NCBI RefSeq assembly: GCF_020085105.1
Contig: NC_058061.1
Span: forward strand, 7,349,284 to 7,413,283
Source: Siniperca chuatsi
Taxonomy: Eukaryota; Chordata; Actinopteri; Centrarchiformes; Sinipercidae
Direction of reading: 5' to 3'
DNA: 64,000 nt
Below, one piece after another: positions 3,226 to 61,600 of the stretch (position 1 is the first letter of the stretch; the number at the start of each line of letters is the position of its first letter). A model generated the notes under the pieces. The model did not search any database. It worked only from the letters and a program-made list of their open reading frames with translations, and was not told the origin of the DNA. Made by a program: the position numbers and the translations under genes.

Positions 3226-3679
3226 ATGGTATCACCGGTGCGGCTATCAGTTAAGTCTAGCGTTCCGAAATATGTTTCAAAGTTAGCTAACTCAGAAATT
3301 TTAGATCGTCTTGTCAGTTAAAAACAGTACAGAGTGTGTAAATGTAGTTACACATGTCCACGAAACTGAGCGTTTTAGTTGTAAATTGTATAATTACGTC
3401 GTTAAGACCGATAATTACCTATATTCATGCTTCAACTGACATATTTCTTTATGACCTTCATATCGCTATATTTGTGTGTCAAGACATACGTAGCTAAGGA
3501 TAAAATGTTATGTTTGTGTGAGTCAACAGGGCATATATTGCTAAGCATAAAGCAATAAAGATTAATGGTAAGCAGTCAGCAGCACTACTTCCTGAGTTTA
3601 GGGAAGGGGCTTGGTCCCGTGCCTGCGCCCGCGCCCCGCGAACGCGCATCAAATTAGCATCGATGAAGTTTGTGCGAAC

Positions 3680-6600
3680 ATGGCGGATTTCCTGCCGACC
3701 AGGTCCGTGTTAAAAGTTTGTCTACCCGTCTGCCTTTTGAACACCGGCGAGTCGGAACAGCTTCGAAAGTCCAAAGAGATCGACAGATGTCTCTCCCGGG
3801 AGAAAACGTACGTGAAACGGCTGGTGAAGATCCTGCTGCTCGGCGCTGGCGAGAGCGGCAAGTCGACTTTCCTCAAACAAATGCGGATCATCCACGGCCA
3901 GGACTTCGATCAGCAAGCCCGAGAGGACTTCAGAGCCACAATTTACAGCAATGTTATCAAAGGTAACCTCGCTGCTGACGGCAGGTACATTGGGAGAGGA
4001 AATAAGCCGTTTGGCTGCGACAGAAAGGCGTTTAAAATGGATGGGAAAGTTTCTACATCTGTTTGGCAGCGCTGTGTGAGAGGACATACATAAACAGTCT
4101 ACATCTGCTGTCGGCACACCCATATGAACCGTGTTTCTACTGAAATCTCCGGGTTTTTTTTAACAGTTCATAGCCGTAATACATTTAACGTTTTAAATGT
4201 GTATCAAAGCCATACACAAGCCAGCAGTTTCAAATAGCCATGGCAAGTTTTGTTGCTCAACAGCTAACCTGGGGATGTAGCTAATGGAGAGTAAACCCAC
4301 CAGTGCATTATGTTGTTAAGTGTTCCTGTTTGTCCACTCTTTGTATGCACAGGGAGTACACTGGCTAAATAACAGGGACTTGCAATACAATATAATTTAG
4401 TGTAAACAATACGACCTAAAAAGGCACAGTTAAATTAATTCCTCTCTGAGTGTCACAAAAAAGTATAAACTGTAATATATAAAGTATTACAAGCTTCACA
4501 AATATATTTATTTGCAAGGTCAGGTGTTGCCATGTGTGTCCAACCCCCTGTACTTATTTTTGTATTTTTTTTCACAGAAGCAGGTTCAAATTAATGCAAA
4601 TCATAGGACAGCGTGGACACTTTTTAATCATTCCTCTTGTAGACATATCTGTGCAATAGGATTATGCTGAATTTGTAGCTGTGATGCCTTTTTAAAATGA
4701 TCTTTTTTACACCCTGCTACATCACTGTGGTCAGGTAAAATAGGTTTGTAGGACACTGGTGTTGTGTTATATTTGGTATGCTGCTCTTCCAGTCTCTCTT
4801 CCACTTTGGGTTTCATTTGCATCTGGCCTGCTAGATTTTAAGTTACTGCCATTGGGCTTCTCTTACTCTGATCTTTTCACTTCCTCTCCAGGTGTACGTG
4901 TGTTGGTGGATGCCCGGGAGAAGCTGCACATCCCGTGGGGTGACCCGGATAACAAGCGGCATGGGGACAGCCTGATGGCGTTCGACACCCGGTCGGCTAA
5001 GATGGCCATCGGGCAGCTGGAGACAGCCGTCTTTCTGCGGTACATGCCCGCCATCAAAGCTCTGTGGGAGGACTCGGGTATACAGAACGCATACGACCGC
5101 CGCAGGGAGTTTCAGCTGGTAAGTGGATGTACACACACACACACACACACAGAGTACTGAAAGATAATGGTTTTTGTACCAGCTCCCACCGGATAAGAAC
5201 ATTTCTTCATGTGGCTCTGGTACACAACTCACCAAACCCAATATGAGTTATTTTGGTGTTTAGAGAGTTGAAAGATGGGTAAACTGCAGTGATAATGGAA
5301 AGTGAAACTAGCTTTCTTCTTAATTCATCCCCCCTTTCCTCTCTCCCTGTATCTCTTGCTCTGGCTCTCTCTCCGTTGAGCGGTCAGACATGTGATTGAG
5401 TCAGCTTCCTGTTTACACCTCTCCCCCTCCTTATGTCTTGGCTGTCAGCATGCACGTTTTTAACCTATTTTATACCTTCTATGGTTTTAACACACTGCTG
5501 TTTACAGCAGAATAAGAGCTGTGGTCGACACTACTTTCAGGTGTCCTTACTGGGATTTTTCTGTACTCTTGGTATTACTTTCACAACCTGCTGCGATTTT
5601 AAAAATCACTAATTGTGCTGCCTTGTGTTTGTTTAATTTTATGTGAGCAGTCAGGTCATGTGGTGAACTTTACACACTGTCCAGCAGTTGTGGAGCCCCC
5701 ACTGAGGAGAGTAGGGGACACACTTCTCCAAGTTGCTTTCACTAATGAGACAAAAGCAGAAAATGAAAATGTTTCTGTGAGTTGCATAAGGCTGAACTGT
5801 TCTCAATGGCATTTTGTTAGCCTCTCACACACACTCAGCTTGCTGCCGTGAGCTGGTTGTGCAGACAGAAAGGGGAATGAGGGTGATCATAGCTGGAATG
5901 TTGATCTGTAGTTAAACAGCTTTATGCTTACAAACAGAGCCCTGGCTCTCCCACTCCCAGCGTTATTGGTGCACAAACACTTGCACCTCAAGTACAAGGA
6001 CAAACACATAAACACACATTCTGTGTGCGTGTAGGGCTGCAACTAACCATTGTTTGCTCATATTTTGGTATGTAAAATGCCCCATAGGATTTCCCACAGC
6101 GCAAGTTGTCATCTTCAAATTGCTCTTTTAGTCGAACCAACAATACAGAACCCACAACTATTCAAATTACTATCATAGAAAACAAAAAAAGCAGCAAATC
6201 TTCACATTTTAAGAATTTTCGGTACTTAAACAAGTGAATTTTTGTCATTTTTGCTTCAAAAATGACTATTAATCGCTAATTAAAATAGTTTTGTGGTCAA
6301 TATACATGTACTGTGCCCTCTAAATCTGTCATCTGGGATGACACTGATAATTTAAATTAGTGGAGAAACAATTTGTTGATTAGTTAATCGAAAGAAAAAT
6401 TTATAGATATAATGATAATAAATCAATAATTTAGTAATTTACCAAGCGCAATTACCAAACATTTGAAACATGACGTATTTGTTATCTGTTTTGTTGCTGC
6501 TTCCAGCCTCTCAAATTAGCTGCTTTTCTCTGTTTTATATCATTATAGATTAAAAATCTTTGAAGACATCACCTTGAGCGCTAGAAAATTATGTGATATT

Positions 6601-11400: not shown

Positions 11401-13155
11401 GCGAACACACACACACTTGTAATAGTCTGATAAGTGGAGCATTAATCAGTTTGTTCTAGCAGATAATGTTTGGTGACTTTCTGATAAGTCGTCATTGCTG
11501 TGTCTATATACGCACTTTTATTCTGTGGAGTTGTTGTAATTTATCAACAAATAACGCTGTCTGCACATTTGCAGGTTGTGCTCTATGGTACCATTAAAAG
11601 TTTTTTATTACAAAGAGAGATACCATTACAGAAATCTTAGCTATTTAAATGGAAATAGCTCACTGGCCATAAGTCTGATTCAGTATCTTACATATCGTCT
11701 TTTAAGTAGGAGAGTAACTGTTGCAGGTTTGGGGTCATGGTTCAGTACGTTCCCAGGAAACATAAGAAATGCTCACAGGATAACATTTTTGTCATTTATT
11801 TAAAAAAAAAAAAATGTATACATTAAATGTGTGCTCTTTTTTACAAGGATGGACCCATACTTGATTTTTGGGAGTGATACTCATAACAATATTTGAAAGT
11901 TTAAAAAATCTGATAACGATATATCAGCCAATGTACTTTTTTTACATAAACTAACATTTTTTTGATAGGATTCCTTAAATTTGGTTATTATGTAAGATTT
12001 TTTCAGTTGAAAAATCAACTTGTCAGTGCTCTCTGGTTGGCAAACTTTGTAATGGCGACACTGTTCCTAAATTACCTTAAACATATCTTTGGCATTTCTG
12101 TACTGCAATGTCTTGTTATTTATCAGCCGACATATACACCAATACGGATATATCTCTGATAATCGACCCGGCCGATGTATCAGTTGGGCTCTAGAAGGAC
12201 CAATATAGCACTTTCAGCAATCCCATATTCTGTACTGTAGAGTATGGTTACATGTCCGCAGCAGTAAACACTTCTGTGACATTGGTTTCTATTGCGTTGG
12301 AACTGTTTGAATCTGCAGTCAGAGGCTGCTGGAATGCTGTGGTTTGCCTTGTTCCAGTAATAGATAAACTTGGGTGATGGCTTAGCATATTTGATGTGTT
12401 TCCAGAGACATACCCAACTTCACTTGACCAATGTTGGCACAACTCACACTTCAGGATTTATATTGTGCACGTGCTAAGACATAGACCAAATTAGACTTGG
12501 TTCACGGGGAGTACAGAATCAAAAAAAGTTATGTACCAAACTGAATATCCTGTACCAAACGGTTTGGATACTCATACTGACACCCCTATTTTATAGAAAG
12601 GCCAACAAGATCGGACAGGATGTATCATGCAGAATTGAGCTATAGTTGGCACTAATTACTAGGGCTCCATTTATTTCTGCCTACAACAATTTTTATTACT
12701 ACTTTAATTACATCTAGTACAATAACAACAGTACTAGTCCTATCAGTAGTAATTGTACTTAATCCCTCCATTGTCTTTAACAGGTGCTAATGGAGGACAG
12801 GCTGACCAACCGGCTGCGTGAATCGCTCAACATCTTCGAGACCATCGTCAACAACCGCGTCTTTGTCAACGTTTCGATCATCCTCTTCCTCAACAAGACG
12901 GACCTGCTGGAGGAGAAGGTGAAGAGCGTTCCGCTCAAGGACTACTTTCCTGAATACACCGGGCAGGAGCACAGCCTGCCGGACATCCAGGCGTTCATGG
13001 TGGAGTGCTTCCGGGCCAAGAGACGCGATACCACCCAGAAGCCCCTGTACCACCACTTCACCACGGCCATCAACACGGAGAACATCAGGCTGGTGTTCCG
13101 GGACGTCAAGGACACCATCCTCCATGACAACCTCAAACAGCTCATGCTCCAATGA
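3680..13155 (+). CDS. gna13: Guanine nucleotide-binding protein subunit alpha-13
   Basis: G-alpha-13 is a G12/13-class GTPase at the inner plasma membrane; it couples GPCRs to RhoGEFs and Rho signalling. Coding exons are 3680-3962, 4892-5118, 8757-8807, 11155-11355 and 12784-13155. They join in frame to 377 codons plus stop, the same length as human GNA13. Cys14 and Cys18 match the palmitoylation cysteines. The P-loop GAGESGKS is at residues 55-62. The switch I arginine is kept within ARKPTKG, switch II reads [12 protein letters not shown], and the guanine motifs NKTD and TTAINTENI are present. The C terminus is LKQLMLQ. I chose the start at MADFLP by family match; it is the first ATG in the family frame and lies in a GC-rich segment. 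The longer upstream open frame is 5' UTR. Two teleost copies (gna13a/b) are known; I cannot assign which this is. Confidence 0.97.
3963..4891 (+). other. gna13 intron 1
   Basis: A GT-AG intron (gtaacc...ctccag) with AT-rich sequence and no gene. An open frame continues from exon 1 into it to about 4093, but splicing removes it. Confidence 0.85.
6033..7012. mobile_element. AT-rich element with inverted ends agggctgcaacta
   Basis: The left end reads agggctgcaactaac and the right end is its reverse complement (agttgcagccct). Between them are several segments rich in gattaat/atcgat motifs. The same sequence family recurs at about 16700-16990, 41566-41856, 45880-46010, 46439-47030, 48925-49090, 51780-52075 and from 55850. 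At about 980 bases this copy is probably several copies merged or nested. It is non-coding and non-autonomous. Confidence 0.6.
8382..8626. repeat. TG runs flanking a degenerate telomere-like repeat
   Basis: TG microsatellites at 8382-8424 and 8605-8626 bracket a segment containing atgttgtggggacata and attgtggggaatca, then a degenerate run of ttaggtt/ttaaggt/ttaggg units (about 8521-8595). This is a mobile-type fish repeat, not a true telomere. Confidence 0.7.
9045..9242. mobile_element. Short terminal-inverted-repeat element
   Basis: The ends read ccagggtatctgcagg and cctgcagaaaccctc, which are near reverse complements. The interior is AT-rich with repeated taaa/ttaaa motifs and has no coding capacity. 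The pattern is typical of a fish MITE. Confidence 0.6.
9657..10113. mobile_element. MITE with 23-bp inverted ends, Tc1/mariner-like
   Basis: The left end tacactcagtggccacttta and the right end taaagtggtcactgaatgta are near-perfect reverse complements over about 23 bases. Both ends begin with TA, as expected for Tc1/mariner-type insertion at TA. The 457-base interior has no transposase frame. Confidence 0.7.
10109..10424. mobile_element. Fold-back element in gna13 intron 3
   Basis: The two halves (about 10112-10205 and 10320-10424) are long imperfect reverse complements, sharing gtataagcagtata, acactataatgtagtta and aagtgtttattaat. It lies directly against the 9657-10113 element. Confidence 0.65.
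11356..12783 (+). other. gna13 intron 4, with a terminal repeat copy
   Basis: A 1.4-kb GT-AG intron. Its middle (about 11860-12196) contains gatatatcagcc, agccgacatatacacc and ggccgatgtatcagt, then gggctctag. This is a common fish repeat built on tatcggcc motifs. No gene is present. Confidence 0.75.
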
Positions 13156-16396: not shown

Positions 16397-19300
16397 ATGA
16401 GCTCTGGTAAGTGTCACAAAATTGTTTTGTCATTAATAAAAGGAGACATCACGTGACCTAATCGCAACCAATATTATACGTGTTTATTTATATTGAGACT
16501 TACTGCACTGCTGAATGATGCAATACAGTGGGAGCTGCTGTAGAAAAGGCAAATCCTTCTAGGAGCACTTTTGACAAGGTGACACGGTCAGCCCCCACAG
16601 CAAAGAAAATGTGCCTCATGCAATAAATTATACAAACCGTACACTTCCTTTTAATCATATATTGGCCGATATTTAGTATTTTACAGTATCATAAGCGCAT
16701 ACATATTTAGAGCTAGTCGATCAACAGAAACTTAATCAGAAACTATTTTTTATAGTTTATTTATTGTTTCAGTCATTTTTCAAGCAAAAATACTGGTTCC
16801 AGCTCCTCAAATGTGCAGTTTTGATGCTTTTCTTTGCCATATGTATGATAGTAAACTGAATATCTTTAAGTTTTAGACTGCATTTTCACTATTTTCTCAT
16901 GTTTAATTGGAAAAACAGTCGATTAATCAAAAAAAAAACGATTAGGTTAATCGATTTAGTAAATAATTTAATAAAGTTTCATCCCTATACATATTGACCA
17001 CATCTAAACATAGAAGTGTTAGTGCCAGACTGTACTGGTTTTAACAGGAGAACTGCTCTGTCACTGTTTTTTCCCCCACAGAGGTGTGCCCATTCTGCGG
17101 GAAAACTTACAAAAGGTTGAAGAGTCACCTGCCACATTGCAAGGCAGCAGCCAGCTCCAAAACACCTCCAACCAAACATGATGTCACGGTGAATCAGACA
17201 ACATCATCTTCTCAGCTGGCCACAGCAGCCTCATCCGAACCAACAGCAAAGGGGGGAAAGTCCACACAGATGCTGTCAGTGACTGCAAGTCCACAATCAA
17301 AGAAGAGTAAAAAGGTGTCTGTGGTATCACCAGCACCACCGCAGTCATCATCACCAGCAACATCTTCGTCACAGTCATTGTCCCTGAGTTCTGCATCACT
17401 TCCACCAACAACTAAGAAGAAGAAACAGAAGCTGTCTGAACAAATCAAGACAACCAACATTCCCTCCTCTAACACAATTTCCCTCATCTCCTCCCCATCG
17501 CTATCTCTGTCTCCCGCCATCTCTAAGCCCAAAAAGAAGAGTCTGCGTGCTTTGATAGAAGCTGCAAAGTCGAAACAGGTTTCTAGACCCAGTGTAAGAG
17601 ACGACTCCTGGGTGGACAGCGAGGGGGAAATTGAGGATTTATCTGTGAATAAGATGCTCTTGAAATCAGGAAGTGGTCACCAGGCCAGGATTACCCTCCA
17701 GGATGTTAAAGCCACACTAGGCCGAGCTAACGCCGCACGTCAGTCCAGCAGGAAAAGCATCCTGAGCCAGATTGAAACTACTGATAATCTAAGCAGCAAA
17801 ATCAGACCTGGTACTAGTCTCACACCAGTTCCAAAGTCTCAACAAGCATCTTTAACCCCCCTTCGACATGATGTTTCTCCTCAGTCTGAACTAACCTCCC
17901 CTGCAACTCCCCTTCTTTCTGGCCATGTATCGTCCCAGGTGAGCCAAGCCACGTCCCCGCCACATACAGTCAGCATGAATGAGGGGCTGAAGGTGGGCCG
18001 TCACATGACCGGACTCCGCACATTATCACCATCACTCCCCCAGTTTTCCAGCCCGCATCTTTTCCCTCTCGCACCACAAACTCTGCCGGCGAGGGTGGAG
18101 ACACTGAGAGCTGCTGATGGGTTGACGATGGAGAAGTTGCAGCTTGAGGTCAGGAAACAAAACACTGCTGATAATGGAACTAAAGGTCAGTATTTGACAG
18201 TAAAAAGCAGGGAAGGGTATCGAACCTCAAAACTTTTGTCTGAAAACTACCAAAAGCTGGTCAAGCTTGTAGTCTTGTTTACTTATTCTTTGCTTTCAGT
18301 TTCTGATTTAAATGGTAATTTTGCTTACTGTGGACCTACTTCATTTAGGCAAAGTTCTTGTTTGCCTGACTGTGTCTAGACAACATCTAACATTTAAGAA
18401 TTTAGGCGCCTTTAGTTAGATAGTAAAAAGGGTTTTGTAGAAAAACATGTTTGTATTCCTCAAAGTGAGGTATTGAAAAAGCATCGTTTTGGTATCGGTA
18501 GTGATATTCAGGTATTGTATCGGCACTAGTATAGGAAAAATACAATACCCAGCCCTAGTGAAATGAAAGAGGATGTGTTTTGAGTGTGTATTTATCTGTG
18601 TCAGTGCATTAATTCTTTATGGATGTCATGAATTGTAGGTGCTCTGACACAGCGGAGTCTTGGACAGGTGAGACTGAGGGAGTTGCCTGAGTGGCTGGCC
18701 TGCAAAACTCCCAGCCATCCAAGAGATGTAGTGGAAATGGTGCAAAGAGGTGAATGTCACACACATCTCACACAAATACAAATATATGTATTACTCACAA
18801 AACACAGCAGTATGCCTAGGTACTGTTTTTTTCTGTGTGATTATATGCTTTTAAAGCAATCGTCCAACGTTTTGGGAAATGAGTTAGACAAGAAAATTGA
18901 TTCCACTCTTGTGCCTGTCTGTTAAATATGAAGCTACAGCTATCAGCCGATTAGCTTAGCTTAGCATAAAGACTGGAAACAGCTAGCCTGGCTCCATCTA
19001 AAGGTAACAAAATCCACCTGCCAGCACCTCTAAAGCTCACACATATACATCTTGTTTGTTTAATCCGTAAAAACGAAGTGTAAAAATTACAATTTGTGAT
19101 CTTGATGATGGCAAAGCTCCAGCTGTCCCTCAAGGACATAATCAGGCACAACACTCGCTCACTTGTAAAACCGCATCTTTTTTACACTTCGGTTTTTGTA
19201 AGGATTTAACAAATGACATATAACGTGTTAATCAGTGAGCTTTAGAGGTGCTGGTAGGTGGATTTTGTTACCTATGGACAGAGCTAGGCTAGCTGTTTCC

Positions 19301-19655
19301 CCCGTGTTTCCAGTCCTTGTGCTATGCTAAGCTAAGCTAACCGGCTGCTGGCTGTAGCCGTGAGAGTGGACGATTTCACATGTATCTTTTTCCTCTCCTC
19401 TTCTGTGCTTCCATCAGGCTGGCAGTGGTATTACAAGAGGTATATTGATGTGAAGAAAGGTGGTGTAGGTGGACTGGGCATGTTGTTAGCAGGATACTGT
19501 GTACTCAGCTACATCTGGAGCTACCCTCATATAAGTAAGTGTGTGGATTACTCTCAGTGTTGCTTTATGTAATGGGCTACATAGATTTGGAGAAAACTGG
19601 GCATGTTGATGGCTGTTTTTTTCCAGAGCGTGATCGCTGGAGGAAGTACCACTAA
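16397..19655 (+). CDS. mtnap1: Mitochondrial nucleoid-associated protein 1 (C17orf80)-like, with ATP synthase subunit f-like C terminus
   Basis: Five exons: 16397-16406, 17082-18185, 18639-18749, 19418-19534 and 19627-19655. They join in frame to 456 codons plus stop. The first coding exon is only 10 bases (MSS plus one base) but has an excellent donor (TCTG|GTAAGTG). Residues 5-22 form a C-x2-C-x9-H-x3-C zinc finger. Residues of about 25-370 are Ser/Thr/Pro/Lys-rich and probably disordered. From about residue 379 the protein reads LGQVRLRELPEWL, RGWQWYYKRYIDVKKGG, a 20-residue hydrophobic helix and KRDRWRKYH-end. This is the full pattern of ATP synthase subunit f (ATP5MF). The family's human member is reported to associate with mitochondrial DNA nucleoids; it is longer (about 600 aa). 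Membrane anchoring through the C-terminal helix is inferred. The gene follows gna13 on the same strand. Confidence 0.82.
16407..17081 (+). other. mtnap1 intron 1
   Basis: A 675-base GT-AG intron. An E-box (atcacgtgacc) lies near 16450. About 16700-16990 is a copy of the AT-rich fold-back family also seen at 6033-7012. No gene. Confidence 0.75.
18186..18638 (+). other. mtnap1 intron 2
   Basis: A 453-base GT-AG intron; the exon 2 frame reads on into it to about 18379. The segment 18470-18560 (gtatcggtagtgatattc, ending acccagccctag) resembles the end of a common fish interspersed repeat. Confidence 0.7.
18855..19375. mobile_element. Fold-back element with ttagcttagcttagcataa arms, copy A
   Basis: The left arm contains gattagcttagcttagcat, aaagactggaaacag, agctagcctggct, acaaaatccacct and cctctaaagctcac. 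The right arm carries the reverse complements in reverse order (gagctttagagg, aggtggattttgtta, gctatgctaagctaagcta). Each arm is about 150-200 bases. It fills most of the intron between the third and fourth mtnap1 exons and ends about 45 bases before the exon 4 acceptor. Confidence 0.8.
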
Positions 19656-22600
19656 GGCCAAGGGAAGATGTTTGGACAAGCGTGACTCCGTATGAGGAAA
19701 CAGCAGCTTTGGCAGAAGGAGGGTTCAGGACTTCTAGGAATCTATTCTGTTAATAATATATAATTAATCCAGATCCAAACATTTCCACAGGATTTATGTC
19801 TGATTAATGAAATTGCTACTGGTTTCTTGTCAACATGATAGCTCTCCCTGTCAGCCCATTCTGTTTTCTTCTCCAGGATTGGTGATCAAATAAGTCAACA
19901 ATTCAAAGCAAAAGTTCAACATTTTGTTAAATATGCTTATTTGTTTTAGAGTTGGATGCGAAGATCAATATGACTCATGCCTGTCAGTTAAATATGAAGC
20001 TACAGTCAGCAGCTGGTTAGCTTAGCTTAGCATAAGGGGAAACAGCTAGCCTGGCTCTGTCAAATGGTGACAAAATCCACCTACCAGCACCTTTTAAAAC
20101 TCACCAATTAACACCTTATATCTCGTTTGTTTAATTTGCACAAAAACTGAGGTGAAAAAATGACATTTTCTCTTTTTGCGGGGATACCACGACCAGTAAC
20201 TTCCTGGAGTCTCTGCTCAGAGCCAGGAAATAGTCCTTGACACATAGCCCCAGTAAAACGGCAAACTGTTGTTTTTACACTTACGTTTTTGTACAGATTA
20301 ATGAGCTTTAGAGGAGCAGGTAGGCAGATTTTGTTACCATTTTACAGAGCCAGGCTAGCTGTTTGCCCTGTTTCCAGTCTTTGCTGCTGGCTGTAGCCTC
20401 ATATTTAATGAACAGAAATGAGTCGCCAGAAAGTAAATAAGCAAATTTCCCAAAATGTCGAACTATTCCTATAACAACTGGAAGACTTGTGATCCTGATA
20501 CCAGTAGTTTCATTCTCAACTGTTTGCCCCTACATGGGCATCTAAAATGAAAGCACCTCACTGTGGCCTGTATAAATTGCCTTGTTATATTTTCTAATTA
20601 TTTATTTACTTATCTATGTTTATCTTATTTGGTTTGCTTTGTATCTTATTTTAGTTTGGGAAGGGAAAGAGAACTACTAAAAATTGTTTTATTGAGATTA
20701 TTTGGTCATCAGAGGCCATTTGTTACAGTCCCACTGTGTCCCCCTGGGGCTCCACTAGGTGTCATTGTTGTGTTGTGTTACCAAAACCAGAGGGGCTGGG
20801 CAGTTAAATGTTTGCTATGCAGAGTTTTCTTAGCTCCTTTGTGCAAAGGCATTGGTGCTGAGGTCCATGAGTGGATTAAAGGGAACCAACAGATTTTTAA
20901 CTTGATAAAATCTTACTCTGGCAGCCCAGATGTAGAGAAACATGAAATTCATGTTCTGACATCAGTATCTGTGAAAAGATCATATCTGTGCAGCAGAGGG
21001 TTACAAATCTGTTTTTCGTTTGCAAATGCTTCCCCTGTCACACGATGTTATTATGCATGCTTAGTCCATCAGTGCCAGTATGTGAACACTCGCAGAATAG
21101 TAATAGAGGGACGCTGGAGAGGTTCTCAGCTGGACTGGACCAGTTTTGTTATTGTATTCAAAATGAATTTATTGTTGACTCTCTTTGCTGCCGTAGTGAA
21201 CACACATTAGCTACAAATGAAGAAATGACAGTATTTTATAACGTTGTTTTCCTGACACCGCTTCTTAGCCAACACATTAAAAAATAATTTCCATTTTCTC
21301 ATGTTTTTGTTGTTTTTTTACATTCGTCTTTTTTCTCCATACAAAAATTATAAATATTTTGTGTTTCACTTTTCATTTTTATACAAAACCACAAACTATA
21401 CAAATCAACTCAGACAAAACAGTGAAAATGGAAGCAGAAAAACACAATCTCTGCACTGAAAATGGGGGAGAAAAAGCACAGTATGTTCCTACCAGACCCT
21501 CAGACACTGATATGCATCAAGATAACAATGTTTCACCAACACTGAACAAGTCCCTACTTTGTGCAAGTCTAAACTAACTTTCTTGTGGATATAAGTGCTA
21601 TAGAGGCACAAAGTCTTGCAGCAACCACTTGAAGGAGCAAATAAATCTCAATTGACTCTTACATATCATTAGAGATTTGCTTTCAAAGCAGAGAGCCCAG
21701 TTTTCTCGGTGTGCACTGGTAGATATATAAGAGGTCTATAGGCAGAGATACAGACAGGCAGGCTGCGATAGCCACTGGCACTCAAACACAAAATCTATCA
21801 CCCCATATAAAAGGCCTTCTGTCTGCTCCTGTAGCCTACTGGCAAGCATATTTCACAGACATGTATTTAGGAGAAAGGTGTCACTATCCAGAATCAACCC
21901 CAGGAGCATTTAACACATTTAACCTAAGCTTTGGTCCTGTGTTGGGTTTAGCAGAAATCCCCCTCTCACTTATACCACAGTGCAGATTTCTGTAGATTTA
22001 TTTGCAAAAATGTCATTCCAAAAACAGAAATACATGGTACTGTATATTTAGGATTCATTCTTCATCATCATGAAATATCACAGTTAAGTTTTGGTTCTAA
22101 AAACTAAATGAAAACTCAACAGAACCAGAACACAGTGGGAGCCCAAGTCATTTTAAGGGCACAGCTTCAGAGGAAACACTACAGCTTTACATTACAGTCA
22201 CAGGGCTGTTGTCACCAGCACAAAGACATAAAGATCTGACAGTGATTCTGGACAAGACCACACTCTCTCCTATTTTGAATTTTGGTTGCGCTGCTGAGAG
22301 TGAGATGAGAGGAAATGTGAGAAATGCTTGAAAAGAAACCTTGGAAAGTGAGAAAAACATCCTGGGGGACTGAGCGAACATTTAAGAATAAAGTCAAGAG
22401 TATGGCAATCAAACAACCGAACTACATGAAAACATAGTCACTGACCAGTGTGTATGTATGCAGATTAACACACACTAATAGACATGTCAAGGAAGTAAAG
22501 CATGGATAGATATGATCAATATATCGTTATACTGTATGCAGAAGGCAGACAAATATACGTACAATCAATGACCCTCCAGGGTCATTTAAACTAATGACGA

Positions 22601-31732: not shown

Positions 31733-31772
31733 GTGACGTTATCACTTCCGCAACAACTGACAGTGCAACAAC

Positions 31773-32816
31773 ATGGATGTAACGACTGAAGTTAGCCGGG
31801 AAACTGCGTTTGCCGACGAATGCGGTGCCGCTAAGATACAAGAGCGACTCCAGAAACGGCACCAGACGAGGATCGAGGATGCCGAGCGGAGGAAGGAAGC
31901 TAAAGAGAGCCAGTCTGTCGCGGAGGAAAAGGGCGAGTATTTCTTCACCACTTTCAACACAGAGCGGGCGTCCATCGAGGAGCTGCTGTCCAGCTGCGCC
32001 GGAGCTGACCGGGCTGTGTTGACTCAAAGGCTGGAGGAGGTGACGGCCAGAACACTACAGCTGCAAAAGTTTCTTAATGACAGCATGTTGTTTATAACGC
32101 AGTACGACCTGAGACAAGCCCAGGCTGCTCTCCAGAAACTCCAAACCTCCCTTGCCGAGACCAGAGAGGAGGGCCTGCCCAAGAAGAAGTTTGCCTTTCG
32201 AGCTCGCACTAAAGCAGCAGATGAAGTTTCTGCACCAGTGTCAGACACACCTTCACCTGATGCCGTCACACCTGCAGATTCTGGTAGCACCAAGGTGGAT
32301 GGAGCTGCAGCCTCCGAGCAGTGCGGCTTCTCCAACATGGACAATGTGTGTCTGACAAAGACAGCTGAGGAGATCCAGAAAGGAGATGTGCTGTTGACTC
32401 ACCTGACTAACTGCAAGGTCCGTCTGTTCGGCTCCCCCAGCACGCTGCACCTGAAGCATATCGACAGCTGTGAGATCCTGTGTGGGCCCGTGTCTAGTTC
32501 AGTATTCGTCGATCACTGTAGAAACAGTACTCTGGCCTTCCCCTGTCAGCAGCTGCGGACCCACAACACCACGGACACACAGGTGTATGTGCACGTCACC
32601 AGCCGAGCCATCATAGAGGACTGTTGTGGAGTGGGCTTCGCCCCCTTCTCCTGGTCTTATCCCACCCTGGAGGAGGACTTCACTGTGTCTGGCCTAGACC
32701 AGGACCGAAACAACTGGAACCAGGTGGATGACTTCAACTGGCTCTCTGCAGGAACACCGTCACCTAACTGGACTGTCATTCCAGAAGCAGACAGGAAAAC
32801 CAATTGGGACCCCTAG
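31773..32816 (+). CDS. tbcc: Tubulin-folding cofactor C (tubulin-specific chaperone C)
   Basis: TBCC is a cytosolic chaperone acting in the final step of alpha/beta-tubulin heterodimer assembly; with cofactors D and E it stimulates GTP hydrolysis by tubulin. This is one uninterrupted frame of 347 aa; human TBCC has 346 aa and is also intronless. Residues 1-125 are charged and helical, with a coiled-coil-like KIQERLQKRHQTRIEDAERR segment. A linker (about 135-190) is Ser/Pro/Ala-rich. The C-terminal C-CAP/cofactor C beta-helix domain follows, with LFGSPSTLHLKH, CGPVSSSVFVDHC and the QQLRTH motif; its arginine corresponds to the GTPase-activating arginine finger of TBCC and RP2. The frame closes with SRAIIEDCCGVGFAPFSWSYP-like sequence. 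A poly(A) signal follows at 32883. Confidence 0.97.
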   Translation: MDVTTEVSRETAFADECGAAKIQERLQKRHQTRIEDAERRKEAKESQSVAEEKGEYFFTTFNTERASIEELLSSCAGADRAVLTQRLEEVTARTLQLQKFLNDSMLFITQYDLRQAQAALQKLQTSLAETREEGLPKKKFAFRARTKAADEVSAPVSDTPSPDAVTPADSGSTKVDGAAASEQCGFSNMDNVCLTKTAEEIQKGDVLLTHLTNCKVRLFGSPSTLHLKHIDSCEILCGPVSSSVFVDHCRNSTLAFPCQQLRTHNTTDTQVYVHVTSRAIIEDCCGVGFAPFSWSYPTLEEDFTVSGLDQDRNNWNQVDDFNWLSAGTPSPNWTVIPEADRKTNWDP

Positions 32817-36362: not shown

Positions 36363-36390
36363 CAGGCAAGGACACATCACAGGTTGAACC

Positions 36391-39300
36391 ATGGCTTTGA
36401 TGTTGGTCAAGTTTGATCTGAAGAAGCGAGTGAAGCTCGCTCAGACGGTCTGGTTCATGTACTGGTTCGCTGTAATGGCCGGTGTGCTGGTCTTCAGCAT
36501 GGGCCTGTTCTTTAAGATCGAGCTGCGAAAGCGCTCAGAACTTATGGACAACAACGAGAGCCACTTCTTGCCCAACCTGCTTATATTTATGGGTCTAATA
36601 GCCTGCGGCATCAATGCCTTTGGAGGCAAAGTCTGCTACGACTCACTGGATCCTACCAAATTTGTAAAGTGGAAGCCCCTGTTGAAGATCTTCTTGGTGT
36701 TCTGCGTGGGGTTCAACGCCCTGCTGCTCTTGACGGCCCTGCTGTGTTTCTTGATGAGGATCCCTCTGCAGTTCACCCTGGCTGAGGGGCTGAAGAACGG
36801 CATGAAGTACTACAAGGACACAGACACGCCGGGACGCTGCTACATGAAGAGGACCCTGGACCTGATGCAGATGGAGTTTCGTTGCTGTGGAAATGACAAC
36901 TACAGAGATTGGTTTGAGATTCAGTGGGTTAGCAACCGCTACCTGGATTTCAGTGCAAAGGAAGTCAAAGAGTAAGTGACAAGGATTAAAAACTAAATCC
37001 CTCGTGATAACCTTTAAAAGTTAGTTAATGTGTGATGTGACAGTGAAATGACTCTTTTTAGGTCAAAGAGACTGTCATTGAACCTGAGTGTATCAGGGTG
37101 GAGGCAGGTGCTTTAAGGGTTGTTAGATTTCAGTATAAGTGGATTTTCACTTTCGTCTACTAAGGATTACCATCACAGAAATGGTGACAGCAATAGGTTG
37201 CAATGGCCACGTGGCATTGGTGGCTGCGAAGGTGGATGAGGTAACTATGCAGTTTTATGGATAAAGTTGGGGGGAGGGTCTTGGGTGATTAGGTACAGAA
37301 AAAGATTCATGAGGTCAAAAAGGCATGAGCGGGGTTAAAAGTACATTGTTCCAGTCCAGTGATATGTGGCCTCTTTGTGACAACTTGTTTATATCTACAA
37401 TGATTTTGGGCAACAAGTACTAGTTAGCTTTATGAGGACAATTGTGAAGAGGACAGTTTTGAGCATTGGCACATAATTAGTGTTTAATCTCAAGGATTAC
37501 AGAGTCCATGTCCTTCAAGAGTCAGAGTCCTGTCCAATCAGCAGAGGACCTGGCAACACTTCAGGGACAGCACTGCCAAATAAAACAATTTGTAGCTGGG
37601 ATTTTAAAATTACTATAAACGCTGGCTGCCCGATTACAATAATACTGGACAGTAACGTAGGGAGGTGATTCGTGAAAACTCTTGTGATGCCATTACAGGC
37701 CTATGACAGTAATCATGGAAAAGGCCTCAATTAATGTCTCATTTTAAAGTTTCAAAGATTCACACACCCACAAGGCTTTTAGGTTTTTCAAATCCTTACT
37801 TAAATATCCTGAAATATCAGTACAGCCATCCTTCTAATTGATAATGCCTTGATTAGTATTCAGAACCTTCCTATATAGTTTTCCTGTATGTTATTTGGTA
37901 TTGAGGAAATTGTTATCAGGGACATTATTTTGGGCTATATTTGGTATTGATGTGTCTAGAAATCACTGATCCATATCTGACTTTCTCAGGTCTAAGTGAT
38001 CCAGTCATACGTGTCTTTCCACTGACCTACTACTATCAATCACAGCTGAGATCTGCTTTCCAGATTGAACACGGACATAAAAATGCTCATTTGGGTGCAC
38101 TGCACATTTTCATGTTATTAACCTGAAAACATTTATTTACATTTAAGGTTTAGAAAAAAAAGATTAGGATCAAGCCCTTTAAGTACAATTTGATTTCACA
38201 TTTATTGTACAGTATTACCGTCAGTGATGTTTTGCTGCAGTACTCTGCAAACTGATTTTACACAACATACTGTTGATAAGTGGTTCTTGACAGTTGATTG
38301 TACACCAGTGACAGTGTTGTTCAAGCTCTACACGTGGTAAACACAACAAGAAAAAGAATAATAAAGAATTAACACAGTATAAGCAATACAAACCACTTCA
38401 TCAGCTCTGAAATAATGCTACCATTGTGAAGCTTAAAATGTTCCATTTATGCTAAGCCTCCGTTAGAGTGATGTTGATTCAACGCTGTTTATTGTTGAGG
38501 CAAGAATGTGCGGTGTTGTATTGGAGTGTATAATATTGATGTGCAACAAATTCTTATTATCAGAATTTGATTAAATTAGATTTTATTCAGCTACTGAAAA
38601 GATAAAATACTCTGCAACATGAAACATTACACCTTATAGTTATTTTGGTAGAAGACAAGTCTAACAGCTAATTTTAGCCCACACATACTACAAGCATAGT
38701 ATGGCAAGCTCCTGACCTTTGATCTCGCCTCACTTTCACCTCCAACCCATCATAACGTGACGCTAACATGGCACTGTCTCATCCTCTTAGCCGTATTGGG
38801 AGCAACGTGGACAGCCAGTATCTGATGGATGGAGTCCCGTTCAGCTGCTGTAACCCAAGCTCCCCCAGACCCTGCATCCAAATCCAGATGACCAACAACT
38901 CCGCCCACTACAGCTACGACCACTACACAGAGGAGCTCAACGTGTGGAAGCGCGGCTGCCGCGAAGCCCTGCTGTCCTACTATGGAGGCATGATGAACAC
39001 CATCGGAGCCCTGGTGGTGCTGGTCACTATGCTGGAGGTCAGGGCCAGCGGTGCATCAACACAAACACACAAATATTCTCGTAAATGTGATAATTTTCCA
39101 CCTCACTTCAAACAGTTTAGTTCAAAAATAATGTTTGCTCTACCATGTTAAAGGTCCAGTATGTAACATTTAGGAGGAGCAATTGGCAGTATGTATGTTT
39201 TCATTCTTGTATAATCACCTGAAAATAAGAATCGTTGTGTTTTCGTTACCTTAGAATAAGCTGTTTTTATCTACAGAGGGAGCGAGTCCCCTTCCACAGA

Positions 39301-51602: not shown

Positions 51603-54600
51603 TTCAAGCCAGGGCTCTGTGTGTATGTGTTTGTGTAGTGCAGTAGTCAGTTATTATTGTGCTAGCGTGTCATTACAAAGGCATCAGAGGCTAGCATCGG
51701 TCATTGAGACAACACTAAACAAGCAGACAGACAGACACTCTTAGTCTCATTTATGATGGTGCTTCTGTACCAAACCTAAGCCAAAAAAATTACCGTTTAA
51801 GTTATTTTTAAGCACAAATGCCAAAAGTTCTCTGGTTGCAGCTTCTCTAATGTGATAATTTGTAGATTTTTTTCTGTTTGTAAACTGAATGTCTTTGGGT
51901 TTTGGACTATTGGTCGGACAAAAAAAGACATTTGAAGATGTCAACAAGGACTATGGGAAAATGTGGTGGGGAATTTTCTCTATTTTTTGGCATTTTATAG
52001 ACTAGAAGATTTATCGATTGATTGAGAAAATGATCTGCAGATAAATCAAAATTGAAAATTAGTAGCAGCCCTATTGCTTTCTTTGAATTTCGATGGCTTG
52101 TCTATATGTTTGTTGAATAACTTTTCTAACTGTGCCAGAACCTTATAAACACGGGTGGATAGAGTAGGTCACTGTGACCTCCACTAACATGAATGTTTTT
52201 TCCTTGCAATATTTACTACTATTAATAATAGTATTTACTACTATTAATGAAAGAGAGAACTGTGTGTGTTGAACACACACTGTTGAGTGAAATGCTTTGT
52301 AATCAGTCCTGATTACAAAGCATTGAGTGGTTAGATTCTACATTGTGGTGAATGTGATGTCTCCCTGCCTCCCTGTCTATCTGTCTGATTGTCTAACTGT
52401 CTGCTGTCACACTCCTGTAATTCTGGTGACAGCGGTGACAGTCTGAAAAAATGTGACATTTTCCTGGAAGTCCTCAGTTAAATTTACTCAACTTTACTCC
52501 GTCTCTGTCTCCCAGAAATTGGCAGGGTACGCAAGGACATGTACAACGACACAGTGAATGGTGGCATGTTCAACGGGCGGGACATGGAGGAGCTTCCCGA
52601 AGCTATCGGCCCCGTGGCTCAGCTGCAGGAGAAACTCTACGTGCCGGTCAAAGAGTACCCAGATGTGAGTGGACAAATCCATGACCTTTGCCCTTTTAGA
52701 CAAGTTTCTGTTTACTTTTCACTGTTGTCACTTTATATCCTCTTAGTTACGGAAAGGCTGCTAGAAGATCAGTGAGGCTTTTAATCACGGGGACGCTTTG
52801 CATTTTATCTAAAAGCTGATTTCATTCTGAGATCATCTCTGCTCACACCCAATGATGTAATCTACACTTAAAATAGATCAATAATGAACCCTGGCCAGTG
52901 TTTCCAATAAGATAAAAATTGATAATTTACTATGATATTTTAAGATTCAGTTAATATAAGTTTTGTTTTCTCAAAAAGGCAATATTCAGATGTAAAATCC
53001 CTCACTGCGACACAATTATTAGCCATAAGATTAACCATAAATATTTATGTGAGCTTAAAAAGGTGGATTATTTTCCCCAAATTTAAAGGCAAGTGGACTG
53101 AAGTGAAGACTTTACCATCCAGTACATCCCTGCCCACGCCAAGTACAGTTAAGCACTTCAATATGAGTAGCGTTGATCCAGATTGAATGGCTCACATGAT
53201 TTTCTCCATGCATCAGCTCGCCAATCACCAAATACAATGACAAGCTGTCCTCACTCACATGATAGAAGACTAACAGGACACACACACTCACACACACACA
53301 CACACACACTCACACACACAGGAGTGCATTGGAAAACGGCTGAGATCAAGTTTAAATTTAGAGAGCAGTTCCTCTATCTGGATTTGTGTGTGTGTGCGTT
53401 GGTGAGAGTCGAGGGTCATCGTAGAGGCCAGAGTGAATGTGTTGCAACTGTTACAGAAGTGGACATTAGGTTAAACTCGGGGAGACTTAAGTACTTCAAT
53501 GGAGTAAAAAAAAAAAATAGGATGAGGCTGGGCAAATGTTATAAGAGAAGAAAGAGACAGAGGGATAGTGGCAAAGAAACAAACACACACACACACAGAG
53601 GGGCAGCTGTCTAGTTAATCACTCAGTCTTAGTGACAGATAAGGTTAAGAGAACGGTGCTGTCCTGTCATGCCACCAGCACCCATATAATGAGCTATTTT
53701 TGTCTCTTAGTAACACAAACACATCACAGATGCACAAACCTCAAAAGCACAGCTCACACACAGCACATGCAAATGCACACACATTGTAAAAAGACAGTTT
53801 GAGTCTGTGATGTAAAACGTGTGTTTCTTCCTTCTGGCCTTGTTTTATTATCAGTGTGTTTTGCTCTTTTGTGTAGTTTAACTTTGTAGGGAGGATCCTG
53901 GGCCCACGTGGACTGACGGCCAAACAACTGGAGGCAGAGACCGGCTGCAAGATTATGGTGCGAGGAAAGGGCTCCATGAGAGACAAGAAGAAGGTACATA
54001 CACAAAAATGCACAAGATACATGCTTTTATTGTCTCTCTCATTTTCCGTTCAAGTCAGTTTCATTTGTATGGCTCTTTAATAGACCACAGGAATGTTTTT
54101 GCATGTTCACATTGCATATTTATTTAAAGGAATAGTTCGACATTTTGTGAAATACACTTTGATACCACTCTTGTGTCTGTATGCTAAATATGAAGCTAGA
54201 GCCAGGAGACAATTAGCTTAGCTTAGCATAAAGACTGGAGACAGGGGGAAACAGCTATCCTTGCTCTGTCCGCAGATAACAAAATCCTCAAAGTCTTGTC
54301 ATAACCAGAGACTCCAGGAACTCACTGCACCCGGCCAAGAAATAATCCCACACATAGCCTCTGTAAAAACCGCAACTTGTCCTTTTTACGCTGCAGTTTT
54401 TGTGCGGATATAAACAAATGGGAAATAACGTGTTAATTAGTGAGTAATCACTGAGCTTTAGTGGTTACCTTCAGACAGAGCCAAGCTAGCTGTTTCCCCC
54501 TGTTTCCAGTCTTTATGCTAAGCTAAGCTAACCGGCTGCTGGTTGTAGGTTCATAGTTAATGTACAAACATGAGAGTAGTGTCAATCTTCTCAGAAGTCA

Positions 54601-55650: not shown

Positions 55651-58600
55651 ACACACACAGACACACACAGAGACAGAGAGGAAGGAAAACAGAGACACAG
55701 TGGGAGGCAACAGGGGGAGAGAAGAGAAAGATGTTGACTTTTGGTGTTTTTCAAAACGATACATCTCACTTGACAAAACATCCACAGAGGATACAATGTC
55801 CCAGCACACAATACTGAGACAGAAGACTTCATAAGTTCAGTTTTAACATGGGCTGCAACTAACACTTATTTTCATTTTAGATTAATCTATTAAGATTTTT
55901 TGATGAACTGAGAGTTCAGGCTATACAATTTAAAGACTTTACAGCCACGTTAGCAACTCTGTAAAGCTGTACTTAAAAGTATGGTTCAACATTTTGGGAA
56001 ATACTTGCATTTGCTTTATAGCCAAAAGTTAGATGAGAAGATCAACACCACTCTCATCTCTGTCTGTTAAATATGAAGCTACAACCAGGAGATTAGGTTA
56101 GCATAAAGACTGGAAGCAGGGGGAAACAGCTAGCCTGGCTAGTCACTGCGCCCGGCCAAGAAATAGTTCAAGCACATAAAGGTCAGGTTATACTCAAACA
56201 GAACTAGTTTGTACAACGTGCTTTTAATTTTAAGTGTTTATAGTTATTCCGAACGGCCACACTTGAAGGCGAAGTAAAAAGCTGGCCGTCATAGAGAGGA
56301 GGGAGACGCGATATAGTTTAAATATGGAGTTAACGGCGCACATTTTCAAACAGTCTGTCCTGGAAGACTTCATAGTGTGGCACTCGGCTGTTCACATGAA
56401 AAGTGACAGTGAAATAGTTGTATAACAAATTAAAAGAGAGTTAGAGAGAAGTTCACACCTAGCTTACTTTCTCACCTCCACACAGCTGGCCAAAACTGGC
56501 TTGAAGTGGGTGTGAACGTCGGATTGTCGGTTTCGGAAATTTATAGAAATGGTTGGACACAGCCCCTCCAATCTGACGTTAGAAAGGTGTGGGGGGAGGG
56601 TGTTTCCGAAGCAATTTGACCATCTGACAACCACTTCTGAAGAGGCATATTGGCAGCTGAACCCCCTATAAAACCACAACTTGTCATTTTTACACTTTTT
56701 AAAAAACTTTTCTGTACGAAATAAACAAAGATGTAATTTATTAATTGGGGAGCGTTAGAGATGATATTAGGTGGATTTTGTAACCATTGGACTAGCCCAG
56801 CCAGCAGCCTATCTACTGCTAGTCAGCCACTCTCCAAGCTAGCAGTTGGCTAAAAACAAACACTGGCTTGCCATCTCACCAAGGTCGTGGTTCTCCACTT
56901 GAGTGACTGGGCAACATACAACGATGGGCATATCTGAGCTTTCCAGTATCAGACAAGATCTCCAGCAAACTGAAGGCTTGATGAATGATCTTCTTCAGCA
57001 ACAAATCCAGTTGAAGTCCCGGTTAGCCAAGCTGAATCCAGTAAATGGAGCTACCTCAGACTAGAGAGACAACTACGTGGGCCTCAGTGGTCAAAAGGAT
57101 TAAAAAAATATCGGTCCCACTATATGACCCTGTGGCAGATGACACCGTCTTCCCGTTGTCGAACCCTTTTGAACCCCTAGCCGACCTGGAGGACGACAAA
57201 GAGGACATCGTGGTCCCATCTTTCCCGCTCCCTGCTGACCATAGGAGTGCACCCCTAATCAGGACGTGTGTCTCCAACTCCTCTGGCCACTCTCCAGACC
57301 TCTCCCCTGTATCCAAGTGTCCGCGGATGTCTGACCCCTCCGCTGCACCCAGCTCTTCGGCCCACATCTTTGCAGTCAATGCAGAGGTACCACTCTATTC
57401 ATCCAGACAACTGGCGGCATCAGAATCAGAAATACTTTATTGATCCCCGAGGGAAACTCTTTCGTTACAGCTGCTCACTATCACGTCAATGCACACAGGT
57501 ATAGAAGTACTAACGTTGCTGTTTCTCCGGTTTTGAGGTTGCTGAAATAATTGAACAAACCCTTGCTATCATTGATTTGCATACCTCTGTCCACACTGTG
57601 TTTGTCGACAATGACGTCATGAGGAGACAATCGGTTAAACTCCACTACGAGTTCAAGTCATTAGTGACCACTGTTGAAAGCCTTGGAAAGACCTGTATTC
57701 TGTCTGGTCCAATTCCTACCTTGAGGAAGAGCTCTGGACATTTTAGCCACCTTTTCAGTCTGCATTCCTGGCTACAGACTTTCTGTACTGCTGCTGGTTG
57801 ATTTTATTGACCACTTATTACTGATTCATTTTGGAAGGAAGAACATTTGCTTAGATGGGATGGCATTCATCTATCCAGACATGGGGTGACGTGATTTGTG
57901 TCAAATGAGAGGGAATCTTTACCTAATTTATCTGACTGGCATATTTCTCAGCAGGCCCCTATCCCATATCCTGTGCTGATCAACAACCAATCCAGACTGC
58001 CCAGGACTAAGTTAAATTTTAGGAATAAAAATCACTCAAATGTCAATAGCAGTCTCATTTCAATTAAGTGTAAACCAATACTGGATGCTGTTCAGCCCAC
58101 CCTCTTCACTATTAAGTTTGGTCTTAATGTCAGATCCCTTCCTAACAAATCATTTTTATGTTACAATTTTATTGTCAGTAATGATCTTGATTTCTTTCTG
58201 ATCGCCAAATCTTGGTTGACCCAGGATAATATAGTTCCCCTAGTTGAAACTTGTCCCCCTGGCTGCTCCTACCTGAACCAGCCCAGATTAACTGGCCGAG
58301 GGGGTGGCCTAGTTGTTTTTTTTATAAGGTCATAAAATTTCAGTCAGGCTTCAGAGTGGGCCATAGCACAGAGACTGCACTCCTCAAAGTGCTCAATGAT
58401 CTTCTTTTAGCAGCTGACTCTGGCCACTCATCTATTTTAATACTTTTAGATCTCACTGCTGCTTTTGATGCCATAGATCATTCAATTTTAATTCACCACC
58501 TTAAAAAATGGGTTGGCATCTCTGGCACTGTGTTAGACTGGTTTTATTCGTTTTACTCAGAAATAGGACTTTTAGTGTTGCTATTGGTGATTGAGGTCTT

Positions 58601-61600
58601 CCACAGAATCTTTGTTTTGTGGAGTACCTCAGGGGTCAGTCCTTGGCCCCCTGCTTTTCTCCATTTACATGTTACCACTAGGACACATAAGTCACAGACA
58701 CAATATTAGTTTCCATTTTTACGCAGATGACACAAAACTCTATTTCTCTATCGACCCCACCAGTAACCAATTAATCACTCTCAAAACATACCTAAATGTA
58801 GACAAATCCGAAGTCATTATCATCGGCCCAGACCCCCCACGTAATCACATCTTACCACAACTTGGTTCATTCTCCACCTGTATCACTACTAACTGATAAT
58901 AATCTTAACTTCAATCAGCATGTTATAATAATTGTCCAGTCTTGTTTTTCCCAGTTACGCAGAATCTCTAAGATCCTGTCCTTTCTGTCTCCCAAGAACC
59001 TGGAAATTGTCATTCATGCATTCATCGCATCTCGTCTAGACTACTGTAATACACTCTACTCATGCTTAAGCAAACACAACCATTTCAGTCTTCAGTTAAT
59101 TCAACAGGCTGCTGCAAGACTCTTCACTAATTCTAACAAAAGAGCACATATAACACCAATTTTAGCTTCATTACACTGGCTACCTGTGCATTTTAGAATA
59201 GATTTTAAATAATCATTAATCATCACTTTTAAGTGACTGGCCCCTGAGTATATCAATGAATGTTTAATCCCATACAAACCTGAGATCCTCATTATTATTA
59301 TTATTATTATTATTATTGGAGAGACCCGGTTTGGCTGTTTACAGTCTTTATGCTAAGCTAAGCTAACCGTCTCCTGGCTGTAGCTTCATATTTAGCAGAT
59401 CGATATGAGAGTGGTATCACTCAATTTAACTATCAGGAAGAAAGCAAATGGCATTTTTTATAACTATTTGGAACACAAAGTTATCCAAAACAATCTGAAG
59501 AATAGTAATGTGCTCCTGTTTTGTTATATGAACAACAGGGAAGGAGACCAACAAATACAACCAGCAACAGTGTCAATATTTGGCATTTCTACTTGATGAT
59601 TACTTGCTAAAATAGTATTCATAAATGCTGTTATTATGTTATCATCGAATCATCATCTGAATATCAATGAATTGACTAATTTTTTCGGTACTAGTTTTGA
59701 TAAAATGAGAGAGAAATAGGGGAAAAGCCAGTGGCAAAGAATGGTGGGATTTGGGGAAATGTTACCAAAAGAATCTGAGCGCCTTCAATAAAATGCAACA
59801 CCAAACTAGTGTAACCACTGAAGAGCAACATGAGTTTGATAACGCTTCCAAAGCAGCATTACACAACCTTGAGCCTTGTGTGGTTTGAGGCCGATCCAAA
59901 AACTGAGCCAAACAAGAAGAAAAGTGAAATACTGTTCCCTCTCCGCAGTATTGGAACGAGCTTGTGTGGCGCATTCAAACAGAGCTTTTACAATGTTTTT
60001 CAGGAGGAGATGAACCGAGGGAAGCCCAACTGGGAGCACCTCAGTGAGGACCTCCACGTTTTGATCACAGTGGAGGACACACACAACCGGGCCAAGATCA
60101 AACTCCAGCGGGCCATCAACGAGGTCAAGAAACTTCTCGTGCCCGCTGTGAGTATCAGTCTGAACCCCTCAGCATCAAATATTATGGACTGGACTGATGG
60201 AAAAACTGTGTGTGACTGGATGAGAGTTCACTGTGTTGGTATGCATGGAAGGGGGAAGGGGATTGTCAGTCCAAAAAGTGTGTGTGTGTGTGTGTGTGTG
60301 TTTGTGTCTTTTTTGTGTTTTTGTGTGTGTATGTCTCTGTGTGTATGAGAGAGTATGTGTAAGGGGTTAGGGTAATTAGGGAACACGCATAAAGGGGTTT
60401 CCATGGTAACCCCGGGTTGTTTGAAAGGCTGAGGGAATGAATGGAGAGTCTGTTCACTTGTTCTCCCCACTCCATCACTCCTTTCACTCGTTCACAACTC
60501 ACTTCATTCCCAACTACTGGCTACAGTATTCCTTTTTCTCTCTTGTTTTTTTTTTTTTTGTTGTCCACACAAGAGGACATTTTGATTGCACTCCTCAACA
60601 TTTCTCACATTCTCCAGCCCACCTACTTCCCCCCTACAGACATACATACATGCATAAATGTGCACAAACATGATGACAAATTAGAAACACATTGGAAAAT
60701 TACACAAACGTGGACATACAGACACAAGGACACACACTCTCTAAATTATCCCCGTCTGACACGCAATCACAAAAGCACATATTTTGAAATCGTAAGGCTC
60801 CTTCCTTTTTTTTAAACTCTGCATTATCTGCAACAATAGTAACAGACTGAAAAGACCAGCAGGGGGATTTCTATTGCGGCAATCAGCCGTCACTTCCCGC
60901 TTCAATCACAGCACGGTATCTGCCAACCCCTAAAAGTAAAAGGATGTAACAAGTGTCTATGGGCAATCAGGAGTGGAACACCTGTTAATCTGTTTGTGAA
61001 TGTGTGTGTGGAGGGTCAAGTTAATGATATGTGTTAGATTAACCCAGGTGACCTTGCTGTCTGACTGTAAATCAGTTAGCCTTGTCACCGAGCTGTAACT
61101 GGAGCTGAGAAGCTAGCGTGTTTGACACTGAATATGTCCTGTGTGGTGCAGTGGCTGTGTTCAAGGTCTGGTCAACTCCATTTCAGACATTGTTAGATTT
61201 ATAACAAATACAAAAATGCAGAGTTTTTTTCTCCTTTAGAAAACATTTAAATTGAATCATAATTAGTTTCAGCATACTGTAACATTTGCTGACTTATTGA
61301 CCAGACTCTCACAAAAGTTCATTCATTCACTTCTCAAATGGCTGAATGACTCTAAGGAAGCTGATTGTGCTGCTCTGCTTGTGTTGGTGTAGGCTGAGGG
61401 GGAGGACAACCTGAAGAAAATGCAGTTAATGGAGCTGGCCATTCTCAACGGGACGTACAGAGATGCCAATGTCAAGACGCGTAAGAATGACATCATAGCT
61501 AACATGTGGAGGAGGGTTTGTGGGTGACAAAGGAGGGGTCTCGGTACAGGAGTCCGCTGTATATATGAACAATGCCTCTGTTTCTCCTGTTAAATAGTCT

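Follow-up and report, generated by a model that had tools for sequence, protein, structure and literature searches.

A putative fish counterpart of MTNAP1 (C17orf80) with an ATP synthase subunit f-like tail as a candidate inner-membrane anchor

A predicted gene of Siniperca chuatsi features a predicted zinc finger, a long basic region, and a homologue of ATP synthase subunit f (ATP5MF) in a single product. The gene was studied within a window of 64,000 nucleotides, i.e., the whole stretch of DNA that was analysed. The domain arrangement is already known: it was published in 2023 for C17orf80/MTNAP1 of humans and other vertebrates, in a study devoted to this protein (Potter et al. 2023, J Cell Sci; PMC10445727), which was also the sole paper found in our literature search to name both C17orf80 and ATP5MF. 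The name MTNAP1 also occurs in a pig genetics paper.

The MTNAP1-like gene was modelled by splicing of open frames on the basis of splice signals and reading frame, and the joining of its exons is predicted. It consists of five exons on the plus strand and has a predicted product of 456 aa. The coding sequence runs from an ATG at 16397 to a stop codon whose last base is 19655, in exact agreement with the coordinates 16397–19655 proposed in a first-pass annotation made from the letters of this DNA. The exons and the evidence for each are as follows:

16397..16406, plus strand: exon 1, start codon and MSS plus one base; GT donor, phase 1
17082..18185, plus strand: exon 2, CCHC zinc finger (residues 6–23) and Ser-rich basic region; AG/GT borders, frame, motif, and composition
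18639..18749, plus strand: exon 3, N-terminal half of the subunit f module, (G)ALTQRSLGQVRLRELPEWL...EMVQR(G); splicing, Pfam WRW, and PDB subunit f
19418..19534, plus strand: exon 4, 117 bases or 39 codons, with aromatic stretch, VKKG, and putative membrane helix; splicing, hydropathy peak, Pfam, and PDB
19627..19655, plus strand: exon 5, basic terminus (K)RDRWRKYH and stop; splicing and alignment with the subunit f C-terminus

All four introns have GT-AG borders and are in phase 1. The open frame of exon 3 begins 7 bases 5′ of the exon and carries no Met ahead of the module; therefore, the subunit f module cannot start alone there. A scan of intron 2 for bacterial-type promoters gave no match, and this type of scan has no bearing on a vertebrate gene. 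Two related palindromic elements, which we label MITE-like, occupy 18933–19358 in intron 3 and 19972–20424 downstream of the gene. Their inverted arms are long and imperfect (85 nt at 84% and 63 nt at 86%), and the element in intron 3 sits between the exons coding for the two halves of the subunit f module.

The tail comprises residues 372–456 (85 residues) and is homologous to subunit f. In a Pfam search of the whole protein, WRW (PF10206) was the sole family reported (E 4.9e-8, 33.7 bits), and the tail alone reached E 1.6e-9 and 38.4 bits, the curated cut-off of this family being 26.5 bits. Among the 10 distinct PDB sequences returned by phmmer at E up to 10, eight are subunit f (E 1.2e-18 to 4e-10) and the other two are Rai1 (E ∼0.9). 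Local alignment of the tail to chain f of 6j54, which we take to be pig subunit f, yielded 37 identities over 82 positions (45%) and a BLOSUM62 score of 185, where 2000 shuffles reached no more than 60; for chain R of 8h9f, presumably human subunit f, 36 of 79 positions are identical, with a score of 186 and shuffles at most 54. Both alignments extend to the last residue of the respective chain. As judged by these comparisons, the tail is a near-complete subunit f homologue and the match is far beyond chance. The subunit f tail seen in the first-pass annotation is thus borne out, including by the profile comparison to Pfam WRW that it had named as a check. The hydropathy peak lies at residues 423–441, where the best 19-residue mean is 1.5, i.e., weakly hydrophobic for a putative helix; the six best windows of the protein all fall within residues 420–445, with a mean of at most 1.5.

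The N-terminal part features a predicted finger, C6-x2-C9-x9-H19-x3-C23, and the C2HC finger read there earlier is indeed present, with the C-x2-C-x9-H-x3-C spacing published for C17orf80 (PMC10445727). Pfam reported no zinc-finger family for the whole protein at E up to 1, and the finger call therefore rests on the spacing and the published motif. Residues 24–371 (348 aa) have a net charge of +23 and contain 19% Ser, 9% Pro, 9% Thr, and 9% Lys, a composition on which the presumed disorder of this middle part is based. The single match of residues 1–371 to PDB sequences is a capsid protein at E 0.75, which is taken as chance.

The surroundings of the gene were characterized by a Pfam run on 8 of the 61 open frames of at least 100 residues in the window, complemented by two genes that we presume from their translations:

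3602–4093 and 12781–13155: open frames of a G-alpha gene, upstream of the MTNAP1-like gene (Pfam)
∼25.5–26.9 kb, minus strand: presumed BICRA-like gene
31761–32816: tubulin cofactor C (Pfam)
36388–36975: tetraspanin (Pfam)
58248–58709: fragment resembling a reverse transcriptase (Pfam RVT_1 at E 4.4e-6; its 27 bits fall short of the 29.6 cut-off)
∼59.8–62 kb: presumed quaking-like gene

Three open frames of the BICRA-like and quaking-like genes gave no Pfam match at E up to 0.001, and an Rfam scan of the window found no family at its threshold.

For C17orf80, the similarity of the C-terminus to ATP5MF was found by HHpred with E 2.6e-15, covering almost complete ATP5MF, and the finger and the subunit f domain occur together only in gnathostomes, a comparison that includes the zebrafish protein (PMC10445727). 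The human protein is mitochondrial and colocalises with nucleoids; TFAM, mtSSB, and Twinkle are among its proximity partners (PMC10445727). Its N-terminus resides in the matrix and its C-terminus at the inner membrane, where a C-terminal tag can be reached without opening the inner membrane (PMC10445727). The membrane pellet retains ∼60–70% of the protein at pH 11 and all of it at pH 9.5, and Potter et al. doubt a major role of C17orf80 in membrane attachment (PMC10445727). Since homology and topology are thus published, the earlier remark that this segment has no described function no longer holds on either count.

A paper in J Cell Biol from 2024 is said to show that C17orf80 promotes mtDNA replication. 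The same role is stated in a passage of a 2026 review (PMC12960730) and differs from the lack of a knockout effect in Potter et al., where human knockout cells displayed no major mtDNA, nucleoid, or respiration defect (PMC10445727).

We consider the gene to encode a fish counterpart of MTNAP1 that uses the subunit f tail as an inner-membrane anchor and holds the finger and the arm in the matrix at the nucleoid, at a probability of roughly 0.88. The C-terminal 85 residues would anchor the protein by one helix through the inner membrane, and the finger and the long basic arm would extend into the matrix and meet the nucleoid, where either of them may touch DNA. The tail would serve as an anchor rather than as an ATP synthase subunit, and the fish protein would behave like human C17orf80, from which topology, mitochondrial location, and nucleoid colocalisation are carried over by analogy. 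Several observations count against this reading: the weak hydrophobicity of the helix (mean 1.5), the missing Pfam finger, the partial pelleting at pH 11, the mild knockout, the doubt of Potter et al. about membrane attachment, and the G-alpha neighbourhood.

The tail spans almost the entire length of subunit f, with the VKKG stretch, the putative helix, and the RKYH terminus included, and could still replace subunit f in some ATP synthase complexes and tether mtDNA to the dimer-forming part of the enzyme. This is very unlikely in view of the human protein: Potter et al. found no support for an interaction of C17orf80 with complex V, respiration and the assembly of complex V are normal in knockout cells, and in complexome profiles C17orf80 migrates at ∼1.3 and 2.5–3.7 MDa, most like DNAJA3 (PMC10445727). 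In the same data, it clusters with RNA-binding, mitoribosomal, and other proteins, and the cluster figure marks some OXPHOS-associated proteins (PMC10445727). Of the anchoring at or near ATP synthase put forward in the first-pass annotation, the inner-membrane part hence agrees with the published topology of human C17orf80, whereas the location at ATP synthase finds no support there. A decayed or unexpressed gene copy has a close to negligible probability, given five exons with an intact frame and consensus splice sites and the conservation of both finger and tail.

Alternatively, exons 3–5 could be an independent short gene for subunit f (atp5mf) that was mistakenly attached to a zinc-finger gene, and the searches of the assembly (719 Mb, 65 contigs) indeed found no other subunit f gene. 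A mammalian subunit f query found only exon 4 of the MTNAP1-like gene, the fish tail recovered nothing beyond exons 3 and 4 of its own gene except two matches at E ∼2, and a degenerate pattern gave no match; a Pfam family search had no match either, but missed even the window's own exons and is therefore uninformative. However, BUD31 was likewise without a match at E up to 1, and CPSF4 without a convincing one: residues 1–174 gave five weak matches (best E 8.8e-5, 29% identity) and a CPSF4 pattern search none. The controls were found, PHF5A with three matches at 85–96% identity and ARPC1B with 20. As subunit f, CPSF4, and BUD31, all on one human BAC, are without a convincing match and both controls were found, a gap in the assembly or in the search is the simplest reading and probably the right one. 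ARPC1-like genes form an apparent tandem pair on contig C3 (∼8.095–8.110 Mb), with a further copy on C21 (∼24.54 Mb); in the 10 kb downstream of the pair, none of the matches to subunit f, CPSF4, or BUD31 is better than E 0.48. Since, in addition, exon 3 lacks an in-frame Met ahead of the module, all junction phases are compatible, the tail is only 45% identical (37/82) to mammalian subunit f, and the same fusion is reported as one protein across gnathostomes (PMC10445727), a misjoined atp5mf is most improbable.

As for the origin of the tail, MTNAP1 may have arisen early in jawed vertebrates by segmental or whole-genome duplication of the ATP5MF–CPSF4 neighbourhood, with finger and linker exons being gained and the tail still able to compete for the place of subunit f in a minor fraction of ATP synthases when mtDNA is under stress. 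This idea is highly speculative and hardly probable. CPSF4L is assumed to adjoin human C17orf80 on 17q25.1, an arrangement that would point to a paralogous neighbourhood, and G10 is taken to be BUD31. In one human array study, ATP5J2 (ATP5MF), PDAP1, G10, CPSF4, and PTCD1 lie on a single 7q22.1 BAC, a second table row listing the same genes under another band (PMC1459182); ATP5J2, PTCD1, CPSF4, and PDAP1 are also among the 7q22.1 genes in PMC7566486. Our literature search returned no paper naming C17orf80 together with CPSF4L, CPSF4L with 17q25, or ATP5MF with ohnolog. Local tblastn at E up to 1 of the window and 100 kb on either side found no CPSF4-like gene and no second subunit f gene, at a low sensitivity (with the mammalian query, even exons 4 and 3 of the MTNAP1-like gene score no better than E 0.035 and 0.064, respectively). 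Weak matches of CPSF4 (E 0.13) and of subunit f (E 0.23 over 12 residues, and E 0.37 at 51610–51693 in the window) are taken as chance. That no CPSF4-like gene turned up in the searched region counts against the duplication. Human ATP5MF occurs in isoforms of 94/88 and of 55/49 aa, a difference of 39 residues that equals the coding length of exon 4; this would fit shared intron positions, which we treat as a lead only. One literature query on this isoform difference found nothing.

The anchor reading implies that a membrane subunit of ATP synthase has found a second use at the end of a nucleoid protein; this reuse is reported from jawed vertebrates only and is useful for understanding the contact between nucleoid and inner membrane. 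The locus contributes a clean gene model from a fish, whose subunit f tail is recognised by Pfam above its own cut-off.

Compared with ATP5MF (PF10206; 8h9f chain R and 6j54 chain f), the module is homologous over 79–82 aligned residues to the very C-terminus. Unlike ATP5MF, it is the tail of a 456-residue protein, at 45% identity, and has no known place in ATP synthase. Compared with MTNAP1/C17orf80, the gene differs in its neighbours, with a G-alpha gene next to it in place of what we take to be the neighbours of human C17orf80 at 17q25.1, and in size, with 456 aa versus 609 aa for the human canonical isoform. The order of the domains is the same: an N-terminal CCHC finger of identical spacing, a long low-complexity middle, and C-terminal subunit f homology with one putative helix. 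Because this order matches, the Siniperca chuatsi gene is probably the fish counterpart, and ortholog, of MTNAP1 (C17orf80).
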